A stretch of 64,000 nt of DNA from Streptomyces griseoviridis (GTDB lineage: Bacteria; Actinomycetota; Actinomycetes; Streptomycetales; Streptomycetaceae). Shown piece by piece: positions 10,256 through 18,602 of this stretch (positions are counted from its first letter, which is position 1; the number at the start of each line of letters is the position of its first letter). The stretch is from the NCBI RefSeq assembly GCF_005222485.1, contig NZ_CP029078.1, positions 3,128,001 to 3,192,000 on the forward strand. The letters run 5' to 3'. The notes beneath the pieces are model-generated. The model was not told the origin of the DNA and did not search any database. It was given only the letters and a program-made list of their open reading frames with translations. Position numbers and translations under genes: made by a program.

Positions 10256-11464
10256 TTATCCGCCGAGCCCCGGGCGGAGGCCGTCGCGGACGTCGTGGAC
10301 CACGCGGTCGAGCAGGTCCGCGTAGGCCGCGATCATCCTCGTCCTGCTGAAGCGCTCGCGGCTCGCCGTCAGCGCGCCGGTCAGGGCCGCCCGGTCGGCC
10401 ACCGCAGCCGACCAGGCGAAGGCGATCGCGTCGGGGTCGGGAGGCGTCACGAGACCCAGCCCCGAGACGATCGACGCGCTGTCGCCGACGTCCGTGGTGA
10501 CCGGGACGGCGCCGCACATCATGCCCTCGACGAGACAGAGCGGCGCGGCCTCGCCCCAGGACGAGGTGAGCGCGACGACATCGGCGGCCGCGTACACGGC
10601 CTCCATGTCCTGGCGCACCCCCAGCAGGTGCACGCGGCTCGCCAGGGCGCGGTCGGCGCCGAACACCGACGCGAGCTGCGCGGCCAGCCCCGCGTTGGCC
10701 GCCGTCATGCCCGCCCCGCACATCACGACGTGCCCGCGCCCCTCCCTGGCCAGCCACGAGCGGGCCGACCGCAGGAACAGCGGCACGTTCTTCATCGCGT
10801 CCCAGCGGGCCGCGAAGACGACCACGGGGGCCGTCGACGGGACGCCGAGCGCCGACCGCACCGCCAGTCGGCGGGCCGGATCGGGGCGGAACCTCAGCAG
10901 GTCGACACCGTTCGGTATGACGTGCAGCAGCGCCTCGGGGACACCGGCCGCCGCGTACGCGTCCCGTGTCGACTCGGCGCAGCAGACGCAGGCGGCCACC
11001 GTGCCGTCGGCGATGGCCGACTTCAGCTCGTCCAGGGCCCCGCCCTGGTTCTCCGGGTCGGAGCGGTGCAGGCAGACCACGACGGGACGGCGCGGCAGCC
11101 CCGCCTGGTTGAGCAGCCGCAGCGGCTGCTCCTTGAGGGACAGGATGACGTCGGCGTCCGCGGTCGCCCGCGCCGTGTCGGCGAGTTCGGGACCGGTGAA
11201 CGGCGCCGGGCCACCGCCGTCCCGCGCGCTGCGGCCCAGGGACGTGACCGTGATCCCGGCGCCGGTCAGCACCCGGTAGCAGGCGTCGTCCTCCATCCGC
11301 TGGCGGGTCGCCTCGCGGTGCACCTCGCCGTGGACGCTCAGCACCCGATGGTGCTGGCCGCCCTCCGCGAGGCCCAGCAGCACATCGCTGTGCACGATCC
11401 GGGCGCCCCCGGAGAAGAAACCGTCGTAGACCGACAGAACTCGCAGCCCGTGCCTCGTCCGCAC
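10256..11464 (-). CDS. Glycosyltransferase family 4
   Basis: A retaining, nucleotide-sugar-dependent glycosyltransferase with GT-B fold, cytosolic or peripheral to the membrane. The N-terminal domain begins LRVLSVYDGFFSGGARIVHSDVLLGL. The C-terminal domain has the acceptor/donor motifs HVIPNGVD, FAARWDAMKN and EAAPLCLVEGMMCGAVPV, the last being the E-x7-E signature of GT4. Acceptor and sugar are unknown, and no polysaccharide genes are adjacent. GTG 11464 gives 402 aa; an in-frame TTG at 11485 would add seven residues but lacks a ribosome binding site. Confidence 0.85.
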   Translation of the reverse strand: MRTRHGLRVLSVYDGFFSGGARIVHSDVLLGLAEGGQHHRVLSVHGEVHREATRQRMEDDACYRVLTGAGITVTSLGRSARDGGGPAPFTGPELADTARATADADVILSLKEQPLRLLNQAGLPRRPVVVCLHRSDPENQGGALDELKSAIADGTVAACVCCAESTRDAYAAAGVPEALLHVIPNGVDLLRFRPDPARRLAVRSALGVPSTAPVVVFAARWDAMKNVPLFLRSARSWLAREGRGHVVMCGAGMTAANAGLAAQLASVFGADRALASRVHLLGVRQDMEAVYAAADVVALTSSWGEAAPLCLVEGMMCGAVPVTTDVGDSASIVSGLGLVTPPDPDAIAFAWSAAVADRAALTGALTASRERFSRTRMIAAYADLLDRVVHDVRDGLRPGLGG

Positions 11465-11702: not shown

Positions 11703-11756
11703 ATGACCCGCCCCCTGCCCGACCGCGCCCCCGCCGTCTCCCCCGTCCGCCGGTGA
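11703..11756 (+). CDS. Possible 17-residue leader ORF overlapping the next start
   Basis: A 17-codon ORF (MTRPLPDRAPAVSPVRR), rich in Pro and Arg, runs from ATG 11703. Its TGA overlaps the GTG of the 143-aa gene as GTGA at 11753-11756, an arrangement that allows translational coupling. The ribosome binding site before ATG 11703 is weak. It could be a chance ORF. Confidence 0.3.
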   Translation: MTRPLPDRAPAVSPVRR

Positions 11757-12184
11757 GCGCCGACCAGGTGCTCGGACGGCGGGACGACGTCACCGCCGTC
11801 CGCGGCACGGAGCGCGCCGTCGCCGCGCTCACCTGGGCCCTCGACGCGCGCGCCGACGACCCGTCGCGCGCCTACCGCGTCACGGCGGACGGCCCCTGGG
11901 GCACCTCCGAGGGGCGCGGGTACGACCTCGTCGACGCCCTCGACCGGGTCCGGCGCGCGCTGGAGGGGGCGGGCTGGCTGCTGGCGGTCAACGCGGCCCG
12001 TCCCGATGTCGCCCAGAGCGGCATGCTCCGCGACTCAGGGAGCACCCGCGCGTACCTCCTGCGGGAGGGGCGGCGCGGCCGGCGCGAGGAGATGGTGAAC
12101 CTCTTCGACGACGCCCCGGCGGACGCGGTCACCACCCTGGACGCCCAGCAGGCCGCCCACCGGCGCTGGCTCGACTCCCTCTGA
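11753..12184 (+). CDS. Small conserved hypothetical protein, possible immunity partner
   Basis: A 143-aa cytosolic protein without signal or membrane segment, of no family I can name. Recognisable segments are RAYRVTADGPWGTSEGRGYD, DALDRVRRALEGAGWLLAVNAARPD, SGMLRDSGSTRAYLLREGR and VNLFDDAP, a pattern of short strands and one long helix. It lies 176 bp upstream of the ADP-ribosyltransferase fusion on the same strand. Size, acidity and position would suit a cognate immunity protein; that is inference from position only. GTG 11753 overlaps the stop of a 17-codon ORF. Confidence 0.6.
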   Translation: MSADQVLGRRDDVTAVRGTERAVAALTWALDARADDPSRAYRVTADGPWGTSEGRGYDLVDALDRVRRALEGAGWLLAVNAARPDVAQSGMLRDSGSTRAYLLREGRRGRREEMVNLFDDAPADAVTTLDAQQAAHRRWLDSL

Positions 12185-12360: not shown

Positions 12361-15093
12361 ATGGCCGAGCCACGAACGCCCGCGTCGGTGGGTGCCGTCC
12401 ATCTCCGGGGCGAGCGGCGAGAGTTGCCGCGGACCCTCGTCGCGGCCCGCGTCCTGCTGCGTCTGATGTTCGCCGTCACGGTGGTGGGCGGCGTCAAGGC
12501 GGTCGTCACGATGACCGGCCTGGGGCTGCTGCGGCCGTCACTGATCGTGCTGGCGGCGTACGCCGTCGCCCCGGGCGTTCTCGGCCTGGTGCTGGCACGG
12601 CAGTTGTGGACGGGCGGCCGACCGGCCTGGCTCGGCCTGATCAGCGTCCAGGCGGCGCTGGTGGCCGGCAGCGTGGTCAACCTGTACCGGGGATCGCCCC
12701 ACGGCTTCAGCCAACTCCTCCTCCCGGTGGCTCTGTTGCTCCTCGTCTGCGCGGGCGGCAGCCGCGCCTGGTTCGACCTGCCCGAGGCCGCGCGGGCGCC
12801 GCGGCCGCGCGGCTCCGTGGAACGGCTGCGCCGGCTCGCGGTGCCGTCCCTGCCGCATCTGATCCGCTGGCGCCGGGACCGCGGCCAGACGGCCGTCGAG
12901 TACCTGGGGCTCATCGCGGTGGTCGTGGCGCTCGTCGGGGCGATGGCCTTCGGCGGGGTGGGCGGCATCGTCGCGGACGGCCTGCGCTCCGCGGTCTGCG
13001 AGGTAACGGGGGACGAGGGCTGCCCCGGCGTGGTGACGGCGGGCGGCGAGGGGGACACGGGCGGAGGGACGAGCGGGGGCACGGCGGGCGGTGCGGCCGG
13101 GGGCGGCTCGTCGACGGGCGCCACCACGACCAGCGGCGGCACCTCGTCGACCGGCGGCGGCTCCAGCTCGGGCGACTCGACCGACGGCGGCGCGGCCGTG
13201 GGCGGCAGCTTCGGCGGGGGGTCGTCGGATGGGGGCTCGTCGGATGGGGGCTCGTCGGGCGGGAGTTCGACCACTGGCGGGAGTTCGACCACTGGCGGGG
13301 GTTCTGCCGGCGGGGGTTCTGCCGGCGGGGGTGCCGCGAACGGGGGTGCCGCGAACGGGGGTGCCGCGAACGGGGGTGCCGCGAGCGGAGAGTCCACCGA
13401 CGGGGGTCGGACTTCGGGAGGCGGCTCCAGCAGCGGTGGGACCTCGACCGACGGCGGGTCCTCCAACGGAGGTTCTTCCATTGGCGGTAGCGCAAGCTCG
13501 GGTGGATCGTCGGGCTCAGGAGGGTCCTCGGGCTCGGGAGGATCGTCGGGCTCGGGAGGGTCCTCGGGCCCGGGAGGGTCGAGCAACGGCGGTTCGTCCG
13601 GCGGGGGTTCCTCCAGCGGCGGCAGCTCCAGCGGACGCGATTCCAGCGGCGGGCTGATCGTCGGCGGCCTCACCACCGGCGGCTTCATCTACGGCGGCAC
13701 CTCCGGGTCCGGCGGGTCCAACTCGGGCGGGTCCAACTCAGGCGGCAGCTCCAGCGGAGGCGGCTCCTCAAGCTCCGGGGGCTCAAGTTCCGGCGGAAGC
13801 TCAAGCTCGGGTGGGTCCAACAGCTCAGGCGGGTCGTCCAGTTCCGGCGGGTCGAGCAACGGCGGCAACTCCAACGGCGGTTCCTCCAACGGCGGCAACT
13901 CCAGCGGAGGCCTCATCGTCGGCGGCCTCACCACCGGCGGCTTCATCTACGGCGGCACCTCCGGGTCCGGCGGGTCCAGCTCGGCCGGGTCCGACTCAGG
14001 CGGGTCCAGCTCGGCCGGGTCCGACTCAGGCGGCTCCAGCTCGGGCGGCAGTACCTCGGGCGGTTCCAGTTCCGGTGGTGAGGACCAGCCCGACCCCGAC
14101 GACAACGACCCGGACCACGAAGACCCCGACGGCAAGGACTGCGGGGAAGGGTCGCCGGTCACGTCGCAGTGGGCGGGTCAGCGTCCCGTCGTCTCCACGG
14201 CGGCGTTCCCCACCACGGCACGGGTCTCGACGACGACGGTCCTGATCGCCGGCGCCCGCTCGCGCCCGCTCGCCGTCGACACCCCCGCCGGGCCCCCGGA
14301 CGACGGCGGCGTCGGTGCGCTGATCGACGCCATGTCCTCGCTCACCCTCTCCGGCTTCGACACCTACGAGGAGGCCGAGGCGGCGGCCGAGGCCGCGTTC
14401 GGGGACGGCTCCGACACCGAGATGCAGGACGCGCCGGGCACCGTCGACACCCCGGACCCGCCCCGCACCGGTGAGGACCACCCGGCCGGCACCGCCGACG
14501 AGTGCGACCACCCGGGCCCCAACGGCACCACCGACCGGCCGGACCCGCGGGACGTGGCCGCCAACCCCCACATCAACTGGGACGGCATCCCCGACTACGT
14601 CGTCGACCGCACCTCGAACGAGCCGCTGTACCGCTCGGACAGCCGCGATCCCTCGGTCATCTTCAACCAGGGGTTCCAGCCGAAGAACCCGGCGGGCGCC
14701 GACCTGTGGACCTACGTGCTGACCAACCAGCCGGCGCAGTACGTCTCCACCACCACCTCGGACCACCTCAACTGGGGCCCGCAGTACGTCTACGACATCC
14801 GGGCGCCGGGCGGCATCGACATCAACGCCACCTACGGCAGCCACTCCCCCTACCCGGACCAGCAGGAGATCGCCTTCCCCGGCGGGATCAAGCCCGAGTA
14901 CATCAAGGGCGTGTGGCAGATGAACCCGGACGGCACGCACGGGCAGTACCTCCCCAACCCGAACTACGACCCGGCGGCGGGCGGGAACAACTCACCCCCG
15001 GTGGACCCGCCCGACTGGACCGACAGCGACGTCGACATGCCGGACGCCGACGAGCCGCTGCCCAGCAGCCCCGACCCGATGGACATCGACTAG
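12361..15093 (+). CDS. Pilin-like membrane protein with long Gly/Ser linker and C-terminal ADP-ribosyltransferase domain
   Basis: A 910-aa mosaic. Residues about 34-140 hold four hydrophobic segments. RGQTAVEYLGLIAVV (174-188) is the class III/Flp-pilin and TadE-like signal seen in actinobacterial secreted proteins. Residues about 226-573 are almost only Gly and Ser. An acidic, Cys-containing stretch follows. The C-terminus is a pierisin/Scabin-like mono-ADP-ribosyltransferase: R758 in LYRSDSRDP, S796-T797-T798 in YVSTTTSD, and Q834-x-E836 in QQEIAFPGG, matching the R-STS-QxE signature of toxins that modify guanine in DNA. A 26-residue acidic tail repeats D/P motifs. ATG 12361 is assumed. I infer a surface-displayed or released toxin. 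Confidence 0.8.
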   Translation: MAEPRTPASVGAVHLRGERRELPRTLVAARVLLRLMFAVTVVGGVKAVVTMTGLGLLRPSLIVLAAYAVAPGVLGLVLARQLWTGGRPAWLGLISVQAALVAGSVVNLYRGSPHGFSQLLLPVALLLLVCAGGSRAWFDLPEAARAPRPRGSVERLRRLAVPSLPHLIRWRRDRGQTAVEYLGLIAVVVALVGAMAFGGVGGIVADGLRSAVCEVTGDEGCPGVVTAGGEGDTGGGTSGGTAGGAAGGGSSTGATTTSGGTSSTGGGSSSGDSTDGGAAVGGSFGGGSSDGGSSDGGSSGGSSTTGGSSTTGGGSAGGGSAGGGAANGGAANGGAANGGAASGESTDGGRTSGGGSSSGGTSTDGGSSNGGSSIGGSASSGGSSGSGGSSGSGGSSGSGGSSGPGGSSNGGSSGGGSSSGGSSSGRDSSGGLIVGGLTTGGFIYGGTSGSGGSNSGGSNSGGSSSGGGSSSSGGSSSGGSSSSGGSNSSGGSSSSGGSSNGGNSNGGSSNGGNSSGGLIVGGLTTGGFIYGGTSGSGGSSSAGSDSGGSSSAGSDSGGSSSGGSTSGGSSSGGEDQPDPDDNDPDHEDPDGKDCGEGSPVTSQWAGQRPVVSTAAFPTTARVSTTTVLIAGARSRPLAVDTPAGPPDDGGVGALIDAMSSLTLSGFDTYEEAEAAAEAAFGDGSDTEMQDAPGTVDTPDPPRTGEDHPAGTADECDHPGPNGTTDRPDPRDVAANPHINWDGIPDYVVDRTSNEPLYRSDSRDPSVIFNQGFQPKNPAGADLWTYVLTNQPAQYVSTTTSDHLNWGPQYVYDIRAPGGIDINATYGSHSPYPDQQEIAFPGGIKPEYIKGVWQMNPDGTHGQYLPNPNYDPAAGGNNSPPVDPPDWTDSDVDMPDADEPLPSSPDPMDID
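13657..13978 (+). repeat. Exact 64-bp direct repeat inside the Gly/Ser linker
   Basis: Bases 13657-13720 and 13915-13978 are identical and lie 258 bp (86 codons) apart. Both encode IVGGLTTGGFIYGGTSGSGG, the only hydrophobic islands in the linker. The whole linker (about 13036-14079) is built of shorter GGS/SSGG codon repeats. Confidence 0.9.
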
Positions 15094-15314: not shown

Positions 15315-16043
15315 GTGCACGTCAAGAAGCTCACCGTCGCAGCCGCCGTCGTCGCCGCCGGTCTCTCCCTGACCGCCTGCGGCAGCGGCGGCTCGGGCGG
15401 AACCTCCGCCGCGTCCAACGCGTCCAGCGCGTCCGCCGGATCGAGCGCGACGAGCGCGAGCAGCGGGTCGAGCGGGTCCGCGCCGGACGGTTCGTCGGGG
15501 GGTTCGTCGGGCGGGTCGTCGGGCGGGTCCAACGCGCACGGCACGCTCTCCGGCGGGAGCCGGTCGGCGTCCTCGACGGCCGGCGGGGCCGCCGGGTCGG
15601 CGGGCTCCGCGACGTCCGCCAGGCCCGCCTGTGACGCCGACCATCTCGACCTCGGCGTCTCCCGCACGGGGACCGCGAACGAGATCGCCGTCAGCATGAA
15701 GAACACCGCTTCCCGTACCTGCGCCATGCGCGGCTTCCCCGGCGTCCAACTGGTGGGCCCCGACGGGCTCGGCGACCTCGGCCCCGACGCCGCCCGCACG
15801 GAGGCGAAGGGCCCCGCGGTCACCCTCGCGCACGGCGAGGAGACCCGGTTCCTGCTGCGCTACCTCCCCGACACCAGCGGCTCGGGCAAGAAGTACACCC
15901 GGCTCTCCGTGACCCCGCCGAACGAGCGGGTCTCGGAGATCGTCGACCTCGGCCGGCTCGCCATCACCGTCTCCCCCGAGTCGGGACACGCCCCGGACGT
16001 CTACGTCGACCCGGTCGGCTACCACGTCGGCTACGGCAAGTAG
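15315..16043 (+). CDS. DUF4232 lipoprotein
   Basis: A 242-aa lipoprotein with lipobox LTAC (Cys22), anchored to the outer face of the membrane. Residues about 23-105 are a Ser/Gly/Ala-rich spacer (GSGGSGGTSAASNASSASAG and similar). The DUF4232 domain starts at ARPACDADHLDLGVSRTG and includes MKNTASRTCAMRGFPGVQLV, with two conserved cysteines that probably form a disulfide. Function is unknown; the family is common in streptomycetes. GTG 15315 is supported by GAGGAG 5 nt upstream. It follows the ADP-ribosyltransferase fusion on the same strand but has its own 221-bp upstream region. Confidence 0.85.
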   Translation: MHVKKLTVAAAVVAAGLSLTACGSGGSGGTSAASNASSASAGSSATSASSGSSGSAPDGSSGGSSGGSSGGSNAHGTLSGGSRSASSTAGGAAGSAGSATSARPACDADHLDLGVSRTGTANEIAVSMKNTASRTCAMRGFPGVQLVGPDGLGDLGPDAARTEAKGPAVTLAHGEETRFLLRYLPDTSGSGKKYTRLSVTPPNERVSEIVDLGRLAITVSPESGHAPDVYVDPVGYHVGYGK

Positions 16044-16063: not shown

Positions 16064-17815
16064 TCAGCCCTTCTTCAGTACGAGTTCGGTGTTGCGGTCG
16101 GCCGGGTCGCCGCCCAGCGTGGTGCTGGCGCCGGGGGCGTTGAAGGACAACTCCCGGTAGAGGGCGGCGAGTCCGGTCTGGGAGAGGTCGGCGAAGTCCG
16201 TGCGGTGCGGGGCCGCCGACTCGACGAGCGTGGTGAACAGCGAGACCGTGCCGTCCTTGTTGTCCACCACCTCGATGATCCGGGCGAGTTGGGGGAAGTC
16301 GACGTGCGAGGCCGTGGAGATCTCCCAGAAGGAGCGGCCGTCGGGCGCCGCGTGCGGGGTGATGTCGTTGCGGTGGATGTGGCCGTTCACCCAGGCGAGG
16401 ACATTGCGGTGGCTGCCGAGGAGCGCCACGACCTCCTGGCCGTTGTGCCTGCGCTCGGTCGGGCGGGCCGGGTCGGCGTGGCTGGTGTTGGTCATCGTCT
16501 TGCTGGTGTGGTGGCTGAAGACGATGACGTGGCCGTCCTTGTTGTCCCGCAGTTGCTTGTCCAGCCACTTCAACTGGGCGGTGCCGATTGACCCTTCGTA
16601 GTGGCCGCCCGGGTCGGTGGTGTCGAGGCTGATGCCGACGACGTCGTCCGAGATGCGGAAGGCGTAGTACTGGGTGCCCGCGGCGAGGTTCGCGGAGGAG
16701 TAGCCGTGGCCGACCGGGCCGAGGCCGCGGTGGGCCGGGTCCAGGTGCGCCCTGAGGTAGTCGGCCGGGGTGTAGGGGGCGCGGCGTTCGTCGGGGGTGA
16801 CCGCGCGCATGGAGCGGGTGTGCGCCTTGAGCATGTCGCGGAACGCCTTGCCCTGCGGGTCCTTGCCGCCCTTGATGGCGTTCTGGAGCTTCTTCGCGTC
16901 GGCCGCGGGCAGAGCCATCAGCTTCCTGCCGCCGACGGCGTACTCGGCGAGCCAGGAGTCGCCGTGGCCGTAGCAGCCGAGCGGCATCGCGTCGTGGTTG
17001 CCGACCGTGGAGTACCAGGGCAGGTTGAGGCCGGGGCTGCGGACCTCGCGGGTGGCGGCGGCGAGGAAGCCCGCCAGGTGCGGGAACCCGGCCTGCTTGT
17101 CGGCGTCCCTGACGGTCGAGTCGGGCTGCCAGTACTGCGTGAGCCCGCTGTTCTGGACGCCCTCGTAGTGGCGGGGGTCCCCGGAGCCTGGGGTGATCCG
17201 GCCGCCGCTCATGATGGTGAGGAACCAGTCGAGTTCGGTCCTGGCGTTGTTGTCGGTGTTGTCGCCCGTCGTCATCGCGAAGTGCAACGGCGAGCCGGTG
17301 ACGGGTGCCCCGCGCAGCGCGTTGACCCGCTCGACCAGCGACACCGCGCCCTGCACGGTCAGCGCCTCGTGGGGGCGCCAGGCGTGCCGGTCGGTGGAGC
17401 GCAGGTACTCCAGGCGCATCGGGTGCTGGCTGTCGATCAGGTGCAGGTCGGTGAGTTGTACGAACGCGGCGAGCGCGGTGCGGCGGGCGGCGCGGCCGGA
17501 CTTCGCGGCGGCCAGTTCACCGCGCACCACCCGCTTCCAGCCGGGTCCCTCGCCGAGGCGGCGGTAGCCGGTGGAGGTGCGGGGCGCGGCGACGGCCGCC
17601 AGGGTGGTGCCCTTGGTGTAGGGGGCGAGGGGCGCGGCGGGCGCCTTGCGGGACTGGGCCACGACCCGGGTCTCGGCGGTGGTGGCGGCCTGGCTTTCGG
17701 TGGGCCGCAGGGCGTAGCCGACGCCCGCGGAGACGGCCGCCGCGCCGGTGGCGGCGAGAACGGTACGACGGTTGATGCCCAGCACGGAGCTGGCGACAGA
17801 GCGTGTGCGCGACAT
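16064..17815 (-). CDS. Tat-exported metallophosphoesterase
   Basis: A 583-aa exported calcineurin-like phosphoesterase. The N-terminus NRRTVLAATGAAAVSAGVGYA is a twin-arginine signal. The metal-binding set runs VQLTDLHLIDSQ (D-x-H), MTTGDNTDNN, STVGNHDAM (GNHD), VIVFSHHTSK and WVNGHIHRND (GHxH), so the dinuclear site looks complete. The substrate is unknown; the long insert between GDN and GNHD is typical of the actinobacterial TIGR03767-type proteins. ATG 17815 lies behind GGGGAG with an 8-nt spacer. It converges on the DUF4232 gene with only 20 bp between stops. Confidence 0.85.
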   Translation of the reverse strand: MSRTRSVASSVLGINRRTVLAATGAAAVSAGVGYALRPTESQAATTAETRVVAQSRKAPAAPLAPYTKGTTLAAVAAPRTSTGYRRLGEGPGWKRVVRGELAAAKSGRAARRTALAAFVQLTDLHLIDSQHPMRLEYLRSTDRHAWRPHEALTVQGAVSLVERVNALRGAPVTGSPLHFAMTTGDNTDNNARTELDWFLTIMSGGRITPGSGDPRHYEGVQNSGLTQYWQPDSTVRDADKQAGFPHLAGFLAAATREVRSPGLNLPWYSTVGNHDAMPLGCYGHGDSWLAEYAVGGRKLMALPAADAKKLQNAIKGGKDPQGKAFRDMLKAHTRSMRAVTPDERRAPYTPADYLRAHLDPAHRGLGPVGHGYSSANLAAGTQYYAFRISDDVVGISLDTTDPGGHYEGSIGTAQLKWLDKQLRDNKDGHVIVFSHHTSKTMTNTSHADPARPTERRHNGQEVVALLGSHRNVLAWVNGHIHRNDITPHAAPDGRSFWEISTASHVDFPQLARIIEVVDNKDGTVSLFTTLVESAAPHRTDFADLSQTGLAALYRELSFNAPGASTTLGGDPADRNTELVLKKG

Positions 17816-18122: not shown

Positions 18123-18602
18123 CTATCCCTCCGGGTCGGGGTGTGCGAGCCGTCCGGTGGCGGGGCGCTGCCGCCACAGGGCGAGCGCGATGTCGACGGC
18201 GTCGGAGCGGTGCAGGTCCGGTACCTCGGCGAGCGGGTGCCAGGCGGCCCGGTCGGTGGAGCCGCCGATCTCGTCGCGCAGGTCGCCGCCGGTGATCCGG
18301 CCCTCGTACAGGACGCGCACGGCGTGCCCGTCGACACCGCGGCGGAGGCGGCGGGGCGAGAGGCGGGGCGGGGTGAGCCGGCGGGCGGCGCCGACGCCCA
18401 GCAGCGCGGTGACGTCCATGAGGTAGCCGGTCTCCTCCTCGACCTCGCGGCGTACCGCGTCGTAGGGGTCCTCGCCGTGTTCGAGGCCGCCGCCCGGCAG
18501 GGTCCACAGGGGCGGTCCGTCGCCCGCGACCCAGCGGGCCATCAGGAGGTGATCGTCGCGGACGCACACGGCGTAGGCCGCCACCCTCAGCTTCTTCCGC
18601 AT
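18123..18602 (-). CDS. NUDIX hydrolase
   Basis: A 159-aa cytosolic NUDIX-fold pyrophosphohydrolase acting on a nucleoside diphosphate-X compound. The NUDIX box is complete: G38-x5-E44-x7-R52-E53-V-x-E56-E57-x-G59. The specific substrate cannot be read from sequence. ATG 18602 gives the compact MRKKLRVAAYAV start usual for the family; ten upstream residues from a GTG look spurious. It diverges from the secreted subtilase. Confidence 0.88.
   Translation of the reverse strand: MRKKLRVAAYAVCVRDDHLLMARWVAGDGPPLWTLPGGGLEHGEDPYDAVRREVEEETGYLMDVTALLGVGAARRLTPPRLSPRRLRRGVDGHAVRVLYEGRITGGDLRDEIGGSTDRAAWHPLAEVPDLHRSDAVDIALALWRQRPATGRLAHPDPEG

Follow-up and report, generated by a model that had tools for sequence, protein, structure and literature searches.

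The window, a 64,000-nucleotide stretch of the Streptomyces griseoviridis genome, carries a gene for a 910-aa putative toxin with a Scabin-like ADP-ribosyltransferase (ART) at the end of a long Gly/Ser-rich arm, preceded by a gene for a 143-aa candidate immunity protein (Table 1). Coordinates and frame of the toxin open reading frame (ORF) had been given correctly in the first-pass annotation, and its N-terminal start, MAEPRT, is preserved in the Streptomyces relative L197. In addition to the four membrane segments described then, a fifth, pilin-like one is present, with hydropathy centres at residues 40, 70, 99, 124 and 191. The arm, noted as about 350 residues of almost pure Gly/Ser, is indeed 347 aa long; the wording was slightly strong for a content of 257 Gly+Ser (143 G, 114 S), or 74%. 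The pre-toxin segment with its DT[YF][QE] motif is common to six of the seven other long-arm ART members examined, the exception being L070.

Table 1. Features of the toxin locus, in window positions; residue numbers are those of the toxin
Feature	Position	Strand	Basis
Glycosyltransferase, left border of the putative accessory insertion, outside the system	10256..11464	-	
Putative immunity gene, 143 aa, TriX/TriTu-like predicted fold	11753..12184	+	
Toxin gene, 910 aa	12361..15093	+	ORF; ATG at 12361, stop ending 15093
Four-helix membrane part of carrier module, residues 24-139	12430..12777	+	AlphaFold2 helices and hydropathy
Class III (Flp-type) prepilin motif RRDRG/QTAVEY, residues 171-181, predicted cut after G175	12871..12903	+	
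Pilin-like fifth membrane segment, residues 182-200	12904..12960	+	Hydropathy, AlphaFold2, alignment
Conserved cysteine pair C213...C221 just past the fifth segment, possible disulfide	12997..13023	+	
Gly/Ser-rich arm, residues 227-573	13039..14079	+	Composition; also in ortholog L197
Pre-toxin segment with DT[YF][QE] motif	14299..14409	+	
Scabin-like ADP-ribosyltransferase domain, residues 756-869; R758, S796-T797-T798, Q834-x-E836	14626..14967	+	
Metallophosphoesterase-like gene, right border, outside the system	16064..17785	-	Metallophos 20.6 bits, cut-off 21.5

The C-terminus matches the Pfam Scabin-like profile PF22596 over its full length (1-130 of 130) with 119.6 bits at a cut-off of 27 (E=1e-34), a match well outside what chance would give; the ART family proposed in the first-pass annotation held up. 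Comparison with sequences of solved structures returned Scabin crystal chains (E=2.5e-28), 5zj4/5zj5 (2.1e-24), the mosquitocidal toxin MTX (3e-17), pierisin-1 (1.7e-15) and the Rhs toxin TreX (2e-14); 5zj5 is named as ScARP in PMC7827354. The catalytic residues had been located exactly, and the R, STT/STS and Q/E-x-E residues align with those of the solved relatives in the Scabin alignment and the family table. By homology over the whole domain, the C-terminus is assigned to the Scabin-like/pierisin-type R-S-E ARTs.

From the same residues it had been concluded that the enzyme is of the guanine- or DNA-modifying type; membership in the pierisin/Scabin family stands, and the conclusion on guanine is weakened. 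In an alignment of 44 rows, which repeats some genes (L168/L070, L198/P0010, the terminal copies L186/L195 and two pieces of L171) and whose underlying motif pattern missed L072 and P0028 (the L072 sequence reads ExE), 42 rows have a letter two residues ahead of the catalytic Glu: 38 show Glu there, and 4 show Gln. QxE is thus seen in the window enzyme, in the ortholog from L197, in P0022 and in the second, secreted Scabin-like enzyme of this genome. In ScARP, a Gln and a Trp of the ADP-ribosylating turn-turn (ARTT) loop recognise guanine (PMC7827354); the window enzyme has Gln at the sixth ARTT position (Q834), but its ARTT aromatic, at the first position, is Tyr (Y831) and not Trp. MTX, which like TreX is among the sequence matches above, modifies EF-Tu despite resembling pierisin (PMC7827354), and EF-Tu is likewise modified by TreTu (PMC10469887). 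Guanine and a protein are about equally plausible as targets, each at slightly less than even odds. The genome's own Scabin-like enzyme (L002, G000:C1:6096390-6096905) is short and, by reading, apparently has a secretion signal; its motif is QVE, and its ARTT loop has a Trp. It is not the nearest branch to the window ART in a FastTree phylogeny shown without support values. The earlier description of bacterial members as short secreted proteins was incomplete, since type VII-type proteins and, among the matches listed, open frames of thousands of residues contain Scabin-like domains as well.

For the carrier part, AlphaFold2 (41 sequences) predicts helices at residues 24-53, 59-81, 87-109, 114-129 and 132-139, with high confidence for the four-helix part (block means 87-97), lower confidence for the pilin helix, and a mean predicted local distance difference test score (pLDDT) of 83.6 for the whole model; comparison of this model with the PDB yielded no relative that stood out. 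Prepilins are cut after the Gly of their motif, and the basic side remains inside. The toxin has a class III motif (G-x4-E-Y) before a hydrophobic helix, with basic residues in front, and throughout the carrier family G175, Q176, E180, G183 and C213 are present in 98 of 98 members, Y181 and C221 in 97. Residues 134-174 contain 11 K/R versus 4 D/E, residues 200-226 one versus four, a charge pattern that would fit a topology with the motif inside and the arm and ART outside. A Tad cluster lies in the same genome (8.96 Mb, one contig) at 5.66-5.67 Mb; it comprises a T2SSE-family ATPase together with an Flp pilin, a TadE-like gene and two TadB/C-like genes, all names other than T2SSE being assigned by reading the sequence. 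A single Peptidase_A24 match of the genome exceeds its cut-off; it lies at 5.19 Mb. The pilin segment of the toxin aligns without gaps over 47 residues with the genome's own Flp pilin, the first half being near-identical; the class III/Flp-pilin-like signal of the first-pass annotation is thereby upheld, though below the Pfam cut-off.

Within a length limit, a search with residues 1-225 alone scored 7995 candidates and returned eight proteins. Each of them carries Tox-REase-5; seven bear the name Streptomyces, and the source of the eighth labels it 'Flp pilus assembly pilin Flp'. A profile of the module was then scanned over 392 Streptomyces genomes and 95 regions were fetched, in which 98 module ORFs of at least 100 bits, the window's own included, were found across 70 genomes; left out were three short-contig matches (G199:C536, G194:C332, G329:C162) and L075, which has no 100-bit ORF. 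C-terminal types were derived by clustering the last 180 residues and named from representatives. Apart from six truncated or broken members, the remaining 92 fall into eight types: Tox-REase-5 (49), Abhydrolase_8 (15), the L084 type without Pfam match (14), Scabin ART (4), ADPrib_exo_Tox (4), two unnamed types (3 and 2) and an XOO_2897-like deaminase (1). More than one of these types is held by 23 of the 70 genomes. One carrier thus bears many C-terminal toxin domains, as is the case for polymorphic toxins.

In a class-wide scan of 296 genomes, the module matched in 11: one (G149) with the pilin part only, four belonging to this genus and six to a single other family. At two loci of that family, L226 and L227, separate adjoining genes encode the four-helix protein and a prepilin-led toxin that is HINT-like by reading; the split speaks for a working link between both halves of the carrier. 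A second set of Streptomyces ORFs (L202-L221), taken from among the weaker module matches listed, matches only the pilin part, with a prepilin-like start and mostly a nearby Cys pair; 19 of the 20 fetched loci have an open frame of more than 350 residues with the motif, and PT-HINT was found in 8 of 10 scanned ORFs. The arm measures 299-464 residues in the eight intact ART-bearing members and at most 147 in those with Tox-REase-5, Abhydrolase_8 or the L084 type. As the former, together with the truncated L068, constitute one branch of the module tree (support 0.83), the long arm may follow ancestry. Locus L066 (G360) contains a tandem pair of long-arm module toxins, one Scabin-like and one of the ADPrib_exo_Tox type.

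The 143-aa protein has no match in Pfam or NCBIfam; its predicted fold is that of TriX/TriTu over nearly the whole length. Among 29 matches to its family, for which the immunity function is predicted, 21 adjoin a Scabin-like ART. An adjoining candidate immunity gene is, like the exchange of toxin domains, a mark of polymorphic toxins. The candidate next to the toxin, with its predicted TriX/TriTu fold, favours bacteria over plants or insects as targets. In P0135, a single ORF of 275 residues fuses a Scabin-like ART with the immunity family, and in L185, L186, L188 and L190 the immunity relatives end in an additional hydrophobic C-terminal stretch and are perhaps membrane-bound.

Streptomyces sp. 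SolWspMP-5a-2 (L197) has the immunity gene and the toxin in the same setting as the window, flanked by the glycosyltransferase on one side and the phosphoesterase-like gene on the other. The flanking pair is about 0.3-0.4 kb apart in L233 and L238 and about 1.3 kb in L236, with no toxin or immunity match between the two genes in any of the three, which marks the locus as a putative accessory insertion; in the other relatives fetched for this comparison the glycosyltransferase is not in the flank, and these were uninformative. In Streptomyces sp. CBMA152 (L198), an immunity gene of 54% identity directly follows P0010, a protein of type VII secretion system (T7SS) type, the ART of which is 50% identical to that of the window over 131 columns. 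Related ART/immunity pairs thus occur both with a T7SS carrier (L198) and with the prepilin-like carrier (window, L070, L197), in an exchange of the toxin cassette between carriers. Between toxin and phosphoesterase-like gene the window has a Ser/Gly-rich lipoprotein-like gene (15315-16043); in L197 the corresponding genes are about 15 bases apart, with no room for it. A NUDIX hydrolase gene lies nearby at 18126-18602.

We interpret the locus as encoding a polymorphic toxin used between bacteria, carried on a prepilin-like module and accompanied by its own immunity protein, and assign this reading a probability of about 0.72. It draws, at the level of sequence, on the architecture, the modular exchange, the linkage of toxin and immunity gene, the predicted immunity fold, the accessory insertion and the Tad genes of the genome. 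Residues 1-225 would act as the carrier, with four membrane helices followed by the Flp-type prepilin segment, whose basic start would be cytoplasmic and whose helix would run outwards, placing the Gly/Ser arm and the ART outside, with the arm reaching through the thick cell wall. The prepilin peptidase of the genome may cut after G175 and so free the pilin-arm-toxin piece from the four-helix part, to be either pushed out by the Tad machinery or kept as a membrane spike. In a target bacterium, the ART would use nicotinamide adenine dinucleotide (NAD+) to modify an essential molecule, be it a guanine nucleotide, a nucleic acid or a protein such as EF-Tu, and the 143-aa protein would protect kin, by its predicted fold through binding and blocking the ART like TriX/TriTu. 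That the two genes form a toxin/immunity pair is very likely, and outward display of arm and ART is probable; prepilin cleavage is an even call, and use of the Tad machine for delivery is doubtful. Unlikely as well, if worth stating, is that 'pilin-toxins' constitute a distinct Gram-positive delivery route, in which giant Flp-type prepilins are held by four helices, cut by the peptidase and pushed through the wall by Tad, with the Gly/Ser arm as spacer to the neighbour cell. The first-pass annotation was right on the architecture and the ART family and, given the topology we infer, on a tethered or contact-delivered toxin; the shared carrier and the adjoining immunity gene were not foreseen.

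Several observations weigh against this interpretation. The Pfam Flp_Fap match of the toxin reaches 14.0 bits at a cut-off of 32.2, and we therefore speak of a prepilin-like segment and not of an Flp pilin; the toxin gene lies outside the Tad cluster, from which the prepilin peptidase gene is in turn about 0.5 Mb away. Seven of the 29 immunity matches, none of them a tandem copy, lack an ART within the 1.5 kb flank. In the survey, immunity relatives accompany only two (window, L070) of the four Scabin ART loci that have the module, with none in the stretches fetched for L066 and L072, and the immunity-first order of the window and L197 reverses that of the 20 linked loci. The Pfam score and the distance from the Tad cluster would also suit a delivery without pilins, in which the fifth segment is a plain signal-anchor, uncut by prepilin peptidase, and the toxin is displayed on its arm, to be freed by a protease or to act on contact. 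We consider this a serious contender at clearly less than even odds, as G-x4-EY is kept in at least 97 of 98 members, beyond what a simple anchor would require, and the first half of the segment is near-identical to the genome's own Flp pilin; moreover, the toxins that share the pilin part only keep the same kind of leader, and L226 and L227 encode the four-helix part and the prepilin-led toxin as separate adjoining genes.

The two other alternatives concern the role of the enzyme. With Scabin as the closest solved enzyme and QxE in both the window and L197, the toxin might be an anti-eukaryotic, guanine-modifying one aimed at plants, insects or fungi; this is improbable, given that a linked immunity protein is expected only where the producer or its kin possess the target, that the immunity protein is predicted to fold like those of Rhs ART systems, that most aligned relatives have ExE, and that the carrier elsewhere bears nuclease-type and other polymorphic-toxin domains. 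More remote still is a surface-tethered housekeeping or developmental ART, of the kind that published work has proposed for the secreted ScARP, loss of which alters differentiation and antibiotic production (PMC11833690, citing a 2012 paper). The genome's own short Scabin-like enzyme would be compatible with such a role, but the locus is absent between the same flanks in three relatives, is linked to a candidate immunity gene and shows the exchange of C-termini typical of weapons.

The system joins three things usually found apart: a pierisin-type ART, a prepilin-like carrier of many toxins and a putative immunity family of predicted Rhs-type fold. It offers a testable case of Streptomyces displaying or sending toxins via pilin-type signals, a candidate antidote for carrier-borne Scabin-like enzymes, and a pointer to a scarcely described means of toxin delivery that soil bacteria may use among themselves. 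In the parts of the open-access literature covered, no description of the four-helix prepilin module, its toxin series or the 143-aa immunity family was found; what is named there is an immunity protein for Vorin, a related Rhs enzyme, and NADAR as enzymes of general reversal, with no immunity gene beside a Streptomyces Scabin-like gene described. The large 2012 survey PMC3482391 has no 'pilin' or 'Flp' in the text portion checked. Flp pilins are listed among the elements joined to CD38-like ARC toxin domains in PMC12605009, so the general idea has already been touched in print; in the part covered this is a single mention, without the four-helix module, Scabin ART, arm or immunity protein of the window. 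Tad-type pilins of the Kil/Tad-like apparatus are required for contact killing by the predatory Myxococcus, with no pilin-fused toxin described in the part of PMC8460266 covered.

Four further known systems are close to that of the window. Scabin of S. scabies and ScARP of S. coelicolor, secreted ARTs of the pierisin family, share the R-STT/STS-QxE motif and domain homology, but are short, lack carrier, arm and immunity gene, and have an ARTT Trp in place of Tyr. Vorin of Erwinia amylovora is a CT/pierisin-like ART neutralised by a neighbouring immunity protein, VorinI, in a layout like that of the window (PMC7764402); it differs in its Rhs/type VI secretion system carrier and ExE motif, as opposed to the prepilin-like carrier and QxE. 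The immunity fold of the Rhs pairs TreX/TriX and TreTu/TriTu matches that predicted for the 143-aa protein, whereas the window has a prepilin-like module in place of the Rhs carrier, belongs to Streptomyces, and has an immunity protein without family match by sequence. P0010 of Streptomyces sp. CBMA152, one of the T7SS-type Scabin-like toxins, has a related ART and an immunity homologue directly after it, and is set apart by a T7SS-type N-terminus (PF21725) and ExE where the window toxin has the prepilin module and QxE.
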